DNA from: Ophiosphaerella korrae
Lineage: Eukaryota; Ascomycota; Dothideomycetes; Pleosporales; Phaeosphaeriaceae
Assembly: GCA_028456385.1 (NCBI GenBank)
Contig: JALNQF010000044.1
Coordinates: forward strand, 222,777-286,776
Reading direction: 5' to 3'
Length of the DNA: 64,000 nt
The position numbers were made by a program, and so were the translations under genes. Shown here piece by piece: positions 54,241-64,000 of this stretch (the stretch's first letter is position 1; each line of letters begins with the position of its first letter). The notes beneath the pieces are model-generated. The model saw only the letters and a list, made by a program, of their open reading frames with translations. It was not told where the DNA came from and searched no databases.

Positions 54241-54558
54241 CTTCTCCATCGGCGCGTCTCCACTATGGTGACGTTATCTATGGTTGCGAAATGGCAAGAA
54301 ATAGGCCCCCCGCTCGTGAAGAGCAACCACCAGATTCTCGTACCACACAACCTCGTGAAGAACACCCAATCACAGCCTTGCAGTCATGTGCGATCTATCT
54401 CCAACCAAGAGTCTGGGTAGATAGCAGTAACAGTCACCCCATGTGATAATAGCACGGATCCCTCGGCGCCCTAGTAATGCTCGCATGGGCAAATACATAA
54501 ATATACCAGGGCGTTGCATTCTGAGAATATCTCAGAGAACCAGAGCACCACGGGAATC

Positions 54559-56269
54559 ATGGAACTATCGATTTTTCTCTCCCTTTTCTGCGCCTGGCTA
54601 ATTTTCTCTCTTTACGTCATATATCACCAGTTACCCTTGAGCCCAGCCTCTCGTTTTCCCGGCCCTAAACTCGCCGCGGCGACATTCTGGTGTGAGTTCT
54701 ACTATGACATCATCCTTGGCGGAAAGTATATTTGGAAGATAAAAGAACTACACGAGCAGTACGGTCCGATTGTTCGCATTAATCCTGAAGAACTTCATGT
54801 CTTAGACCCAGAATTCTGGGATGTTATGTACACGGCTAGTACGACCAACAACCGCCGTGAGAAATGGAGCTAGCAAACATGGGGAACAGGACTTCCGGCC
54901 TCGATATTCGGAACAGCGGAGCACGCCCTGCATCGCCATCGTAGAGCAGCTTTGAATAATTTCTTCTCTATGCAAAACGTTCGAAAACTGTTACCAGTTG
55001 TTCAAGAGCGTGTCGAGGCGTTGGTTCAAAGGCTCCAAGTCTTAGGACAAGAAGGAGAGACTGTAGCCCTGGAATATGCCTTTTCAGCTTTCACAAATGG
55101 TATGGGTTCTTTGGCAGATTTTTCTGAGGAGTTGAAGCTGATCGAATACACTCAGATGTTGTTATGCAGAACTGCTTTAGTCGTATGGACAAGTAGGTCC
55201 AATGAAAATTTATTGAACTTTCATAGCCATGTAAGCTAATTTATTCTCAGTCATATCGAAGTTCCCAACTTCGATCCAACCTTTCACAAAGTCTCATTTG
55301 CGTCTGGAAAGGTGATCGCTCTGATGAGGCACATGGGCTGGCTCCTTTCCTTGATGCGCGCACTGCCTGAATCCATTGCGGTGAAAATGGGTCAAGAAGT
55401 ATCTTCATCTGTTCGCTTAAAAAGGGTGCGTTAATCTTCAAACTCTGATAGCCCAGAGCTGGCGGTAACTGAAGCCTCAAATATAGGATCGAATGAACCA
55501 GATTGACGCCATTCGTAGGATGAAAAATCCTGACAAGCAAGATGTGAACTCCAAGAATATTTTTCACTCTCTTCTCCAGAGTTATCTACTTGAGAAAGAA
55601 AAAGAGACGGGGCGACTCGCGGAAAAAGCAGTTTTGCTTGTTGGTGCTGGAACGCACACCACTTCCTGGTGTCTCACGGTTATTGCGTTCCACCTACTTC
55701 ACAATCCAAGTTTGCTACGAAAACTAAAGCAAGAGCTTAAGTCTGTTAAAGACATTTCAGATTACTCCGAGTTGGAAAAACTTCCCTACCTGACAGGTGT
55801 TTTAAAAGAAGGTTTGCGCTTGGGATACGGCTTAAGTGTGCGAAGTGCACGTATCGCACCGGACACTTCATTGAAATGTGGTGACCAAATAATTCCAGCT
55901 GGCATACCTGTCAGTATGACTGTGCCCTTGACGCATCACGTTGAAGCCTTGTTCGAGAACTCGCATGCTTTCGACCCTGATCGTTGGATAGGAGAAGGTA
56001 GCAGCCGTCTAGACAAGTACCTCGTCTCTTTCTCAAAAGGATTCAAGGGTTGTTTGGGTATCAACCTTACGTGGGCTGAGCTATATCTGTGCACCGCAGG
56101 TATATTTAGCAAGTTTGGGTCTCGCGACGTCAGGGCCGCAAGCGATTTGGGTTTTTTGGAGCTTTATGAAACGAATGAAGGCGATGTGAGAATCGAGAGC
56201 GATATGTTTCTCCCCTTAGCAAAGGAAGGATCCAAGGGAGTCAGAGCTAAAGTACACGTATCCACTTGA
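54559..56269 (+). pseudogene. Cytochrome P450 with one in-frame stop
   Basis: Exons 54559-55099, 55156-55192, 55251-55425, 55487-56269 join in one frame of 512 codons including the stop. An N-terminal membrane anchor (MELSIFLSLFCAWLIFSLYV) is followed by RFPGPKLAAAT and YGPIVRINPEELHVLDPEFWDVMY. Later come an I-helix (VGAGTHTTSW), a K-helix ExxR (EGLRLGYG), FDPDRW and the heme loop FSKGFKGCLG with Cys ligand; Lys replaces the usual Arg. A TAG at 54871-54873 interrupts it within the conserved block just before QTWGTGLP, with the frame continuing unchanged. It is the only lesion, so recent inactivation, a sequence error or readthrough are all possible. It would be a microsomal monooxygenase; its neighbour on the other strand is a broken regulator. 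Confidence 0.75.
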
Positions 56270-57927: not shown

Positions 57928-58161
57928 ATGGGATCCAATTTCCTCATTACAGCATTTGCCCTGGTGACATGCACTGTTGCTTCCCCAACACCACAACGCA
58001 ACCGCGGAGGCGCAAACCCACCACCTGGTACCCCAGCAGATCCAGGAATCAAAGCTCCCAAGGGAACTAACTGCACAATAACATCGACTGCTGGCGTCCT
58101 TGGTTGCGACACCGGCGATGGCGGCACAATCAACATCGTTAACGGAAAGATCAGTCGCTGA
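57928..58161 (+). CDS. Small secreted protein, 77 residues
   Basis: Single exon with ATG in a good context (caagatgg). Signal peptide GSNFLITAFALVTCTVASP, then a short mature part with a Gly/Pro/Asn-rich stretch (NRGGANPPPGTPADPG) and two cysteines (NCTIT... and GCDTGDGG). The end is TINIVNGKISR. No family recognised. Size and secretion fit fungal effector-like or surface proteins, but two cysteines and low complexity give no specific hint. Confidence 0.6.
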   Translation: MGSNFLITAFALVTCTVASPTPQRNRGGANPPPGTPADPGIKAPKGTNCTITSTAGVLGCDTGDGGTINIVNGKISR

Positions 58162-58443: not shown

Positions 58444-59130
58444 TTAAAGCAGAGCAACCTTACATCCATTTGCACTCTTGCATGTCAGCTTCAGCTTCCT
58501 TTTCCACTCCCGATTGTCTCTACTCTCAATTGCCTGAAATGCGCGAGCCATTCTGAAAAGCACATAGGAAGCCTCAATCATTGCCTTTTGCTGTCCTAGG
58601 CAAGCTCGATTTCCTGCCCCAAAGCCATAAAACTCCCACTGAGACGGTTGAATGCTATTCCATCTGTCTGGTCTAAAAGCTTCAACGTCATCTCCAAATA
58701 CAAAAGTATTTCGATGTACAGAGTAATACCCCATAATGACCTCTGTCCCTCTCGGGACAAAGATTGGAGATTGTTGGTCAGAGCCGCCGCCTATAGGGAG
58801 TTTGGTGTCTCGAAGGGCCATACGACCCAGAAGGGGGAATATAGGGCACAAACGGAGGGCTAAATGTAATATTAGCAATCAGGCTACATCCAAAGGATGG
58901 GTTTAACTCACTCTAGAAGGATGTTCTTGATGAGCCTAGAATTTGTAAATTTGTCCACCTGAAGAAAATCGTTCCCTTCTCCGATAGCTTCAGCATGAAG
59001 GCGTTGCCAGTAACTGGGATGGCGCGCTAAAAGGAACAAGCTGTTTGTAAGGAGTTCTGAGGTTGTATCTTGAGCTGCCATCATGCCTTGTATGTCCACA
59101 AAAACACCGAATCGCGTCAGAGTTGGTGGG
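58444..59130 (-). pseudogene. Truncated cytochrome P450 (C-terminal third)
   Basis: Reverse-strand remains of a P450: I-helix (MAAQDTTSELLTNSLFLLARHPSYW), then K-helix to heme region (LRLCPIFPLLGRMALRD, YYSVHRNTFVFGDDVEAFRPDRW, FGAGNRACLGQQKAMIEASYVLFRMARAF). It resembles the CYP52-like alkane/fatty acid hydroxylase group. The N-terminal about 300 residues are absent, with unrelated sequence beginning near 59130. The intron between ILLE and ALRLCP (about 58867-58910) no longer restores the frame. It appears to lack two bases at the donor. Stop at 58444. Confidence 0.8.
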
Positions 59131-59166
59131 TGATTTTTGCTTATCCCTTTTCATACACGACTCCTG

Positions 59167-59519: not shown

Positions 59520-59803
59520 GACACAATATTAACTGATGAAATTGTGTCTTCGGGAGAAACCCAAGCTCCACAGCTCAATGATAAAGCGTCGTGGATTGGG
59601 AACGTTGCGTCGGAGAATGGGATGGTCTTCAACACCGACTTGGTGGACCGGCAACTTCAGCAATCAATAGAGAGAGGCTATATGAAGATAATAACACCAA
59701 GGGAAATGGTATGGTTTTCGATGGCAGTTCCAATGCGGAAGCACTTGCGGTTCTTATCCGTGCGAAGTCCGACGCCAAGCAGGCACGGCCGAACGCTGGC
59801 TAG
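59520..59803 (+). pseudogene. Frameshifted tail of a SesA/HeLo-like effector
   Basis: Translation in one frame gives LNDKASWIGNVASENGMVFN plus TDLVDRQ. About 40 bases on, a second frame gives ERLYEDNNTKGNGMVFDGSS and then AEALAVLIRA. Both pieces align without gaps to the C-terminal tail of the intact protein encoded at 60192-61027 (LGDKVSWIENEAF...MFNTDLAKRQ; then ERLYKGTKAHGRSMVLQGNA...ILRA). A frame change between about 59660 and 59690 separates them. No N-terminal domain is visible upstream. It is thus a decayed, opposite-strand paralogue of the tail. Confidence 0.7.
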
Positions 59804-60191: not shown

Positions 60192-61027
60192 CTATCTTCT
60201 ACGTGCGCGAAGAATAGCAGCAACTTCGTCTGCACTAGCATTACCCTGGAGGACCATACTCCTCCCATGAGCCTTAGTTCCCTTGTATAGCCTTTCTACA
60301 GGTGCATGGGCTTGCCGTTTGGCGAGATCTGTGTTGAACATATCCGCATCGTCGAAAGCCTCATTCTCAATCCACGACACTTTGTCTCCAAGATTTAATG
60401 CCTGGACATCCTCGCTCGTAAGGGGAACTATGCCTTCGCCTTGTGCAATTAGCATGAGTGGACATGATTGTGCAATTATACAGTACTGGTTTCATCTAAG
60501 CTCCTTGCCTCAAGCTGAGCAGCAATCGAAAGCCTGTGCCCAAGGATCCTTTGCACGTTCTGATCAACTCGCTGAATAGCCGCTAAAGCCGCTGTGAACC
60601 CGGCGCGCATAGTGCCGCTTAGTCCAACATGCGCCATAACGATTCGTGCAGTTAGGTCTGCTCTTGCACGATCTAATTGAGTCATGGTGTTGTCAAGACC
60701 CTTATTTTCTTTGTCCCCGTTTATGAGCGCATGAGTGTACTGCTTAGCTTTGCTCTTTTCTTGGTGGGTAGCTAGGTCATCTAACTGGCGCTGCAACTCT
60801 TTGCCTAAGCTTACAATTTTCTGGCTCTGCTCCTTGATTGCAATAGTATGTAGCTCTGGTTCATCGCGGACAAGCTGCAGCGTATTAAGTATATTATCAA
60901 GCTGGTCTTTGTACCCGTCTAGGCGAGCCGATGCTCCATGCACTCTTGCTCTTAAGTCCTGTATCTTTTGGATGATGGTGATCGCTTGACCGAGCAGCTG
61001 AGAGACAGCAGCTGTGCTGCCGATCAC
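60192..61027 (-). CDS. SesA/HeLo-like effector with C-terminal HRAM-type amyloid motif (predicted)
   Basis: Exons 61027-60487 and 60439-60192 (47-bp intron, branch GCTAAT, AAG acceptor); about 262 residues. The N-terminal 180 residues are helical (GSTAAVSQLLGQAITIIQKI; LDGYKDQLDNILNTLQLV; RADLTARIVMAHVGLSGTMRAGF). They resemble the N-terminal domains of fungal STAND proteins and their stand-alone partners. The tail at residues 233-250 (nt 60231-60284) reads KGTKAHGRSMVLQGNASA, with the G-x-S-x4-G-N pattern of HET-s-related amyloid motifs. The gene is divergent from a NACHT-WD40 receptor whose N-terminus carries a similar motif. By analogy with HET-S/NWD2, the product would be a membrane-acting death effector triggered by templated folding. 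That is inference; the HeLo assignment is tentative. Confidence 0.72.
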
Positions 61028-61313
61028 TTCCTAGTGTACCCTGTAAGATCCTTACCTGGCAGCTGTTGGTGACTCTATAAACGTACCATTATCGCAAAGC
61101 ACACGAAGGCCGGGGTCCGCTTGGCGAAGTCAAGTGTCTGCTGTTCAGCTGAGGCTTGGCACAGTTTGGGCCTCGCCGCAGCGCTAACATCTCACTCCTG
61201 CAATATGAGCTCCTTAGTCTTCTTGCCTTGGGTTCGTCGCACTGGCTCTGACTGACGGTCGCTTGCTCACTCGAACCCTGCGGGCAAGACCTGGTAGGAT
61301 TTCCCGCTAGTGC
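61028..61313. promoter_or_regulatory. Bidirectional promoter between effector and NLR
   Basis: 286 bp separate the two ATG codons. A CTATAAA-like word lies at about 61074-61080. The short shared region would allow coordinated expression of receptor and effector; no factor sites are identified. Confidence 0.55.
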
Positions 61314-64000
61314 ATGGCACAGCTCAAACTAACGTCTAGCCGTAGCAGCGCACTGATGCATTCCTCGGCTGGCCACACGACAACGTATGCAGATATCAGA
61401 ACTGACGGCAATTCGATCAACTTCCTCGGTAACATTGATGGCGGTGTCCACATTCCCGGCGGGTCTGGCATTCCGAGCCCCCACCAATGCATGCGCGACC
61501 TTAGAGTTACTGACCCGCGCGAAGACCGGGCGAGGATCGAAGGCGACAAGGACAAGCTGCTCAGAGACTGCTATGCATGGGTCCTGAACGACACCAGCTT
61601 CCAGCGGTGGAGGGCACGGGATGACGCACGGCTGCTGTGGATTCGGGGCGACCCGGGCAAAGGCAAGACAATGATGACGATGGGTCTTATCGCTGAGCTA
61701 TCTAAAGGACATAAGGCTAGGCCGTCGTCATCAACGATGTCGAGGGTCTTAGCCACGCTCCGGCCCAGCTCCAGGCCAGAGCTGCTAGCTTACTTCTTCT
61801 GCCAGAGCACCCGACCGGAGCTCAACAACGCAGTGTCGGTCCTTCGTGGGCTCGTATATCTGCTTATCGCTCAAAGAGAGCAGTTCATGCGGCATGTGCT
61901 GAAGCGGTACGAGGCTGTGGGTGGTAAGCTTTTCGAAGGCCCCAATGCCATCTACGCGCTGAGAGAGATACTGTCGGATATACTCAACGACCCAGCCCTA
62001 CCAACAACATACCTTCTAGTTGATGCTCTTGACGAGTGCACAACTGGATTGTTTGACCTCCTGCGTGTTATCACTGACAATGATGTTGGGCGGCGGTCAA
62101 GGGTCAAGTGGCTGGTGACGAGCCGCAACGTACCAGAGATTGAGCGGTTTCTACAGCCAGACTCTACTGGGGTCAAGGTCAGCCTTGAGGTCAGCGCAGA
62201 CCACGTAGCAAAGGCGGTGGCGGCGTTTATCAACTTTAAGGTGCAACGGCTAGCGGTGGCACAGAAGTATAACAATAAGATTAGAGCAGAGGTGGTGCAG
62301 CAGCTCCGCGATAAGGCTGAAGGCACGTTTCTGTGGGTGTCGCTCGTGTGCAAAGAGCTGGAATGTGTACCGCTCTACCGTACGCGGGAAGTGCTGCAAG
62401 CAATGCCAGCTGAACTTGACCCGCTGTATGACCGGATGATGGCACAGATCTCAGCGCAGGACGTTAAGACTGCAAAGCACTGTAAAGATATTCTCCGATC
62501 AGTTACTATCGCCTTCCGGCCGTTGTATCTCAGAGAGCTTGTTGTAGTTGCTGGCCTCCCGAGAGATCAGTTTGACAGTGCCCAGGCAGTCGCGGACCTC
62601 GTCAGCCATTGCGGGTCCTTTCTCACCGTCCGCCAGGACACGATATCGTTCATTCACCTGTCCGCTAAAGACTACTTTACATTAGGAAAGGGCCAGCAGG
62701 TGTTTGACTGTGCAGTAGCAGAAGAGCAAGGGCAAGTGACCTACCGCCTGCTTAATGCAATGCGCAGTATACTGCGCAGAGATATGTCTAGTATAGCGGA
62801 GCAAGATGAAGATAGCGTTCTTCACCAAATCGCGTATGCATGCGAGTACTGGGTCGATCATTTGTGCAGCTCGAGCCTCACGTCTCTAGCGAATGACGAT
62901 CATGTGTTGCAGGATAAAGGCATTATCGATCTATTTCTGCGGGAGAAGTTTCTGTATTGGCTAGAAGCTCTTAGTCTGTGTAAGAGTGTACCAAAGGGGG
63001 TAGCTTCAGTAGAGAAACTCTGGTCGCTCCTTCAAGTATGTTTTATACAAATACCCGTATTTGCAATGATTTTTTTTTGTCTAATATAAGCTAGAAAAGA
63101 GGAGAAGTAAGTGCATTTGCTGAGCTTATCAAGGATGCGCATCGATTTGTAATGTACCACAAGGGAGGCATTGAATATAACGCTCTCCAGGTATATACAT
63201 CTGCGCTGTTGTTTAGTCCAAGGAAGAGCGTAATTAGAAGACTTTTCCAGCACGAAGAGCCAGATTGGATCCATATTGTACCGGCCATAGGCGATAGCTG
63301 GAGCGCATGCCTACAGACGCTCGAGGGCCATAGCAGTACGGTCAACTCAGTAGCCTTCTCGCATGACTCGACTCGGCTCGCGTCTGGATCGTGGGACAAC
63401 ACCATCAAGGTATGGGATACAAGCAGTGGCGCATGCCTGCAGACGCTTGAGGGCCATAGTAATATGGTCAACTCAGTAGCCTTCTCGCATGACTCGACTC
63501 GGCTCGCGTCTGGATCGAATGACAACACCATCAAGGTATGGGATACAAGCAGTGGCGCATGCCTGCAGACGCTTGAGGGCCATAGTAATATGGTCAACTC
63601 AGTAGCCTTCTCGCATGACTCGACTCGGCTCGCGTCTGGATCGAATGACAACACCATCAAGGTATGGGATACAAGCAGTGGCGCATGCCTGCAGACGCTT
63701 GAGGGCCATAGTAATATGGTCAACTCAGTAGCCTTCTCGCATGACTCGACTCGGCTCGCGTCTGGATCGTGGGACAAGACCATCAAGGTATGGGATACAA
63801 GCAGCGGCGCATGCCTGCAGACGCTTGAGGGCCATAGTAATATGGTCAACTCAGTAGCCTTCTCGCATGACTCGACTCGGCTCGCGTCTGGATCGTGGGA
63901 CAAGACCATCAAGGTATGGGATACAAGCAGCGGCGCATGCCTGCAGACGCTTGAGGGCCATAGTAATATGGTCAACTCAGTAGCCTTCTCGCATGACTCG
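61314..64000 (+). CDS. NACHT-WD40 receptor (NLR), cut by window end
   Basis: Exon 1 61314-63035, 59-bp intron, exon 2 63095 to the window end (open). Residues 26-44 (nt 61389-61445) read ADIRTDGNSINFLGNIDGG, matching the G-x-S-x4-G-N-x2-G-G pattern of HET-s/NWD2 amyloid motifs. A NACHT domain follows: Walker A GDPGKGKT (about residue 112), Walker B YLLVDALDEC (about 233-242) and KWLVTSRNVPEIERFL. A winged-helix-like region (ILRSVTIAFRPLYLRELVVVAGL) leads to the linker FVMYHKGGIEYNALQVYTSALLFSP typical of HET-E/HNWD receptors. Near-identical WD40 repeats then start near 63301. Such proteins sense non-self ligands and activate a partner that kills the cell. ATG 61314 places the motif right at the N-terminus, as in NWD2. 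Confidence 0.9.
63301..64000 (+). repeat. 126-bp tandem WD40-coding repeats
   Basis: Five full units plus a sixth cut by the window end, with ggccat landmarks at 63326, 63452, 63578, 63704, 63830 and 63956. Units are almost identical at the DNA level; differences cluster in few codons. In one block units read SWDNT, SNDNT, SNDNT, SWDKT, SWDKT, and unit 1 has HSSTV where the others have HSNMV. This is the pattern of HNWD-type receptor repeats that undergo concerted evolution with selected variable sites. Confidence 0.95.

Follow-up and report, generated by a model that had tools for sequence, protein, structure and literature searches.

A divergent NLR/effector gene pair of Ophiosphaerella korrae with a candidate HET-s-related motif

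The locus and the receptor gene

The window, that is, the whole stretch of 64,000 nucleotides that was analysed, forms the right end of a contig (C379) in a genome of 63 Mb and 974 contigs, and the contig ends at window position 64000 (contig position 286776). Its introns, SesA domains and NACHT-WD40 genes point to a filamentous fungus. Near this end, a receptor gene on the forward strand and an effector gene on the reverse strand are adjacent and divergent, with an intergenic stretch of 266 bases (61090..61355) between both predicted start codons.

The receptor gene (61356..64000, forward strand) is incomplete at its 3' end, being cut by the contig end at 64000. Its first exon (61356-63035) is an open frame. 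The methionine at 61356 matches that of the paralogues C223 and C767 in the alignment, and an in-frame ATG at 61314 is an alternative start. A predicted intron of 59 bases (63036-63094), with splice sites judged by eye, separates this exon from the WD40 exon (63095-64000), which stays open into the contig end. Pfam profiles match NPHP3_N in exon 1 above its cut-off (E 1.2e-29), NACHT in the same exon at 26.5 bits against a cut-off of 26.7 (E 6.6e-6), and WD40 above cut-off in six stretches. The WD40 array (63303..64000, forward strand) is built from 126-bp repeats with 97% matches, of which 5.5 copies are present up to the contig end. The predicted product has the layout of a NACHT-WD40 NLR, namely a NACHT NTPase followed by WD40 repeats. 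Both the adjacent divergent order and the receptor with NACHT and WD40, as claimed in an earlier note on this DNA, were confirmed by the frames and the Pfam matches. The receptor/effector pair is real, and it is probably functional.

The receptor-side motif, referred to as R0, is the segment YADIRTDGNSINFLGN (61386..61433, forward strand), which was aligned with five paralogues. From 61386 onward, the receptor N-terminus contains YADIRTDGNSINFLGNIDGG.

The effector gene and its tail

The effector gene (60192..61089, reverse strand) is predicted to encode 264 amino acids in predicted exons with open frames. A putative first exon would supply the start and consist of the ATG only (61087-61089); it is followed by a predicted intron (61031-61086), an exon for a SesA-like, HeLo-related domain (60487..61030), a second intron of 47 bases (60440-60486) and a tail exon with an open frame (60192-60439). 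The position and phase of the second intron are the same in the paralogues C88 and C458, whose SesA-like exons are 56% and 65% identical to the window copy, respectively.

The SesA-like character of the N-terminal domain, also put forward earlier, holds in part: the window effector matches PF17107 with an E-value of 1.8e-4, but its 22.1 bits lie under the cut-off of 26.3 bits. The C458 effector reaches 19.1 bits against the same cut-off, and the C88 effector is not listed. Sequence searches against solved structures, for which the two effector exons and the two alignments served as queries, produced no match with an E-value under 0.13, and NCBIfam gave no relevant match. The single-sequence AlphaFold2 model of the effector is helical, with a mean pLDDT of 48.7, which is too poor for fold inference.

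The effector-side motif, R2, is the segment YKGTKAHGRSMVLQGN (60240..60287, reverse strand), which was examined by shuffling, profile and consensus comparisons; the tail from 60287 downward contains YKGTKAHGRSMVLQGNAS. A possible first repeat, R1, is WIENEAFDDADMFNTD (60327..60374, reverse strand), whose status as a repeat is weak. R1 carries T or S where the consensus has glycine, the window copy having T, so that two effector repeats each with a conserved arch glycine were not found. That the effector has a clear internal repeat was considered and rejected for want of statistical support, as the similarity of R1 and R2 gave p-values of 0.045-0.66 in nine comparisons.

A degraded remnant of a second effector tail adjoins the window effector near 59.6 kb (59547..59684, forward strand), inverted relative to the effector. 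Compared with residues 25-70 of the 99-residue tail frame, it shows an identity of 46% (E 3.2e-5).

The paralogous family and its conservation

The R0 segment is present in six receptors (C379, C223, C767, C217, C88 and C458), and effector tails are present at five loci (C379, C458, C88, C217 and C340) in addition to the window remnant. Because the genome searches score best candidates only, both counts are lower bounds. The first 106 residues of the window receptor gave 45 receptor matches, 39 of which start at residue 38 or later, that is, beyond most of R0. The divergent arrangement recurs at four loci (C379, C88, C458 and C217), with only a tail found at C217; at these four of the six receptor loci, a divergent effector or tail thus lies alongside an NLR with a single motif copy at its N-terminus. 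Genome searches with the effector and the tail gave no effector match alongside the C223 and C767 receptors, which would fit several receptors using one effector pool.

The PF17107 search gave eight other SesA matches in the genome. By eye, each is followed within its own stretch by a nucleotide-binding frame, and five of the eight coincide with NACHT matches. The text of PMC3321046 describes such an 'all-in-one' architecture as an alternative for systems of this kind. The stand-alone SesA-like effectors seen in the genome are those of the present paralogous family; others may be missed, and the census is incomplete, because the PF17107 search left the C458 and C88 effectors unlisted.

Among the three effector tails with open frames, dN/dS is 0.09-0.12. 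For the SesA-like exon it is 0.08 and 0.18 in the two of three pairs that were computable, with an effector dS of 1.7 or more, and for the receptor it is 0.19-0.20. These values indicate purifying selection; the effector tail is very probably translated and constrained, in agreement, by codon evidence alone, with the earlier assumption that the motif is translated. On the question of conservation relative to the flanks, also raised in the earlier note, the effector tail as a whole shows roughly the same degree of conservation as the SesA-like exon (pN 0.18-0.24 versus 0.20-0.29). The receptor N-terminus evolves faster than the remainder, with a dN/dS of 0.27-0.38 in the first 60 columns versus 0.17-0.19 for the rest.

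Receptor first exons are open at C379, C223 and C767, and effector exons at C379, C88 and C458. The receptor matches at C88, C458 and C217 contain stops. Repeat-induced point mutation (RIP) was considered as the origin of the C458 stops and set aside, the dinucleotide indices being not clearly RIP-like. In the alignment of the six R0 segments, that of the window diverges most, sharing 31-47% identity with the others. These stops, the divergence of the window R0 and the degraded tail copy next to the window effector are what would be expected if the locus were degenerating within a family on its way out, the remains of a disused signalling pair. However, the window receptor is open up to the contig end save for one predicted intron, the effector exons are open and dN/dS is low, so that decay is the least probable of the explanations weighed here.

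Similarity of the receptor segment and the effector tail

The pattern G-x-S-x4-G-N, which the earlier note had reported as common to the receptor N-terminus and the tail of its partner, is confirmed in the letters of both segments (61386-61433 and 60240-60287). In its literal form it occurs in four of the six receptors, but it does not extend to the other effectors: only one of the three tails tested carries it, the last N being replaced by K in the C88 tail and by H in the C458 tail.

Whether the shared motif exceeds chance depends on the level at which it is assessed. Shuffling of the receptor N-terminus gave p = 0.29 for the window pair alone, whereas the paralogues lend the claim support. 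In receptor-by-tail comparisons, with 1500 shuffles each, 16 of 24 gave p < 0.05, including three of the four own pairs; these p-values are uncorrected and the sequences are related to each other. For the C88 own pair, the alignment falls on the first repeat and not on the second. Profile-profile comparison placed R0 and the tail in the expected register (P 0.0059; hhalign probability 6%). A further comparison covered all 144,832 cells, that is, ungapped 16-residue pairs between the receptors C379, C223 and C767 and the effectors C379, C458 and C88. R0 against R2 is rank 1 of these cells in the family, and it remains first without the window receptor. For the window pair alone, the aligned cell ties for second.

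A chance similarity of two biased segments, in neighbouring genes without a functional tie, would account for the p of 0.29 in the window pair, for the literal pattern in a single tail of three and for the low hhalign probability. It is difficult to reconcile with the first rank in the family, the profile P and the four paralogous divergent pairs, and it is regarded as highly unlikely. Taken together, the family rank, the profile P and the paralogue shuffles indicate, at the level of sequence, that the R0 and tail segments are related or kept alike, at sites where such systems bear motifs.

Fit to HET-s/HRAM and other amyloid motifs

The profiles PF11558, PF17106 and PF17046 gave no match in the window exons and receptor, the C88 and C458 tails, or the C223 and C767 N-termini. 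A genome search with PF11558 gave zero matches anywhere, and this is hence no proof of absence. The paper that defined HRAM motifs states in its text that a PF11558 match was obtained for just 38 of its 155 double-motif proteins (PMC4518210), so the missing match here is weak evidence.

The published HET-s consensus, as given in the text of PMC3321046, has G at positions 10 and 17 and N at position 18, and NWD2 has alanine at 12. A scan of eight HRAM positions taken from the text of PMC4518210 beat shuffles in none of nine sequences. A second scan used 11 positions from the text of PMC3321046, widened by HRAM variants. Here, the top-scoring segment of every one of the six receptors is the R0 register, with 7-8 of 11 positions (8 of 11 for the window R0). 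In each of the four tails examined, the R2 register has the highest score or shares it, with 6-8 of 11. Against shuffles of single sequences, p fell below 0.05 in one of ten, the window receptor (0.024). When all segments of the whole proteins are ranked on the HET-s consensus, the R0 register comes among the first four of 582 and the R2 register among the first two of 246; in a scrambled-pattern control, 0.05% of 20,000 patterns equal both ranks. The allowed residues of the consensus were chosen after the sequences had been seen, and no known HRAM served as positive control, so that the fit counts as support and not as proof.

The sequences depart from the consensus at position 1 in all ten cases, at position 13 in nine of the ten, at position 14 in all six receptors, and at position 6 in five of the six, where N is found. 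The majority form of the motif in the family is [YW]-x-G-N-x-A-x-[GD]-x-[SA]-x4-[GT], from which the window R0 and R2 deviate at the first G-N. The relation to HET-s proposed in the earlier note fails the profile check for want of a PF11558 match, but finds moderate agreement with the published positional consensus. Canonical HET-s/HRAM1 membership is unsupported in view of the missing PF11558 match, and membership in the HRAM class is unproven.

Other motif classes were considered and rejected. The published sigma, PP, PUASM and GDQN patterns occur in none of nine sequences (six receptors and three tails). For sigma identity, PF17106 likewise gives no support, its lone match in the genome having an E-value of 1.2 (C146).

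The missing HRAM profile match also speaks for a different account of the segments, in which R0 is a docking peptide for a tail that forms an adaptor domain, either folded or helical, and the two make ordinary contact instead of amyloid templating. Conservation spans the whole 80-residue tail and is not confined to the motif (the other copies share 53-63% identity with the one in the window), and the tail is charged, its conserved terminal stretch appearing amphipathic by eye; both features favour such an adaptor. The shared segment, however, is rich in Gly, Asn and Ser, and it occupies the N-terminus of the receptor and the C-terminus of the effector, the sites known from described amyloid pairs; its fit to the HET-s consensus exceeds that of scrambled patterns. 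Ordinary docking is consequently considered unlikely.

Proposed mechanism and implications

The best explanation, to which a probability of about two in three is assigned, is that the two genes form an NLR/effector system like NWD2/HET-S, with a divergent HET-s-related motif. Judged by its sequence, the pair looks like a divergent relative of a known signalling system, consisting of an immune-type receptor and a small helical, possibly cell-killing protein. In such a system, the WD40 array would sense a non-self cue, and the NACHT domain, as its family suggests, would oligomerise the receptor. The clustered R0 segments could then form a HET-s-like beta-arch and an amyloid-like stack, as the consensus fit suggests. 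This stack would template the related R2 in the effector tail, a step suggested by the shared segment and its placement. The SesA-like domain, belonging to a HeLo-related family, would thereby be freed, and the cell would die from the membrane damage that it causes. For the window pair, amyloid formation, templating and killing are inferred by analogy.

A more tentative proposal, which is possible but rather doubtful, is that the family represents a further discrete fungal amyloid motif subfamily, [YW]-x-G-N-x-A-x-G-x-S-x4-G, that goes with stand-alone SesA-like effectors, and in which several receptors (C379, C223, C767) are wired to a small shared effector pool (C379, C88, C458). If this were true, a further SesA-linked motif class would exist in one genome as a small family of paralogues, some of its receptors paired and others unpaired. 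Such a naturally occurring set would make it possible to ask what side chains fix seeding specificity, and whether several receptors can use one effector.

Comparison with known systems

Systems built on this plan of two genes are well documented in the texts of PMC3321046, PMC9815663, PMC7889193, PMC4518210 and PMC5485727. The described classes of fungal amyloid motifs are few, comprising HRAM, sigma, PP, PUASM and a provisional SesA-linked GDQN class (text of PMC12261475). A motif of the present form was not found in the running text of the literature consulted, including that of PMC12258605 and PMC12881547.

The sigma system HET-eN/SESA/SESB of Nectria haematococca likewise combines a sesA-type effector with an NLR, but the window family has no GxGxQF or GGTQN units. 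A report of 2025 describes GDQN, another motif, in a SesA/NLR pair (text of PMC12261475). That pair is similar in that an effector with a SesA domain and a non-HRAM motif lies beside a probable NLR, whereas its NxxxGxQYxxxGxGDQN pattern is absent from the window family. Within the same genome, proteins with a HeLo-like domain (PF17111) have a tail layout that is comparable by eye. The window tail compared with the tail of the PF17111 protein at C912 gave p 0.007, the best alignment overlapping the first repeat; among the comparisons of tails with PF17111 tails, two of nine fell below 0.05, with an hhalign P of 0.13. That the effector tail might belong to a wider HeLo-like tail family is a lead only.

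As with HRAM motifs, there is one copy in the receptor and up to two in the effector (text of PMC4518210), and the HRAM screen described there took in sesA proteins. Unlike HRAM motifs, the segments depart at some positions from the consensus, in a comparison made with its published positional form. Unlike NWD2/HET-S of Podospora anserina (HRAM1), the window pair has no PF11558 match, its effector is SesA-like and does not carry a HeLo domain, and its motif lacks the consensus N at position 1, the positive charge at position 13 and the glycine of the first repeat. Like NWD2/HET-S, as described in the text of PMC3321046, it consists of divergent neighbours, a NACHT-WD40 receptor and a small effector, with a motif at the receptor N-terminus and the effector C-terminus that fits the elementary consensus in part.

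Judged from the NACHT matches scored in the O. korrae genome (88, with stop codons in some), its NLR repertoire is large. At positions 63303-64000 of the window, near-identical WD40 repeats continue up to the contig end, and it is probably at these repeats that the assembly breaks.

Adjoining the effector gene in inverted orientation, a remnant of a second effector tail lies at 59547-59684 (+). Frames at 54478-56269 (+) and 58444-59150 (-) resemble fragments of cytochrome P450. A short frame at 57928-58161 (+), the start of which appears signal-peptide-like by eye, could encode a small secreted protein.

Elsewhere in the genome, matches to PF17111, the HeLo-like domain profile, are adjoined by NACHT matches on the opposite strand at C55:24301-25900 (L075) and C912:117400-118200 (L077), making both loci candidate divergent pairs. 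Positions 139-209 of the same profile match repeated blocks on contigs C490, C912, and C79 (L070-L074), followed by tails with some likeness to the effector tail.
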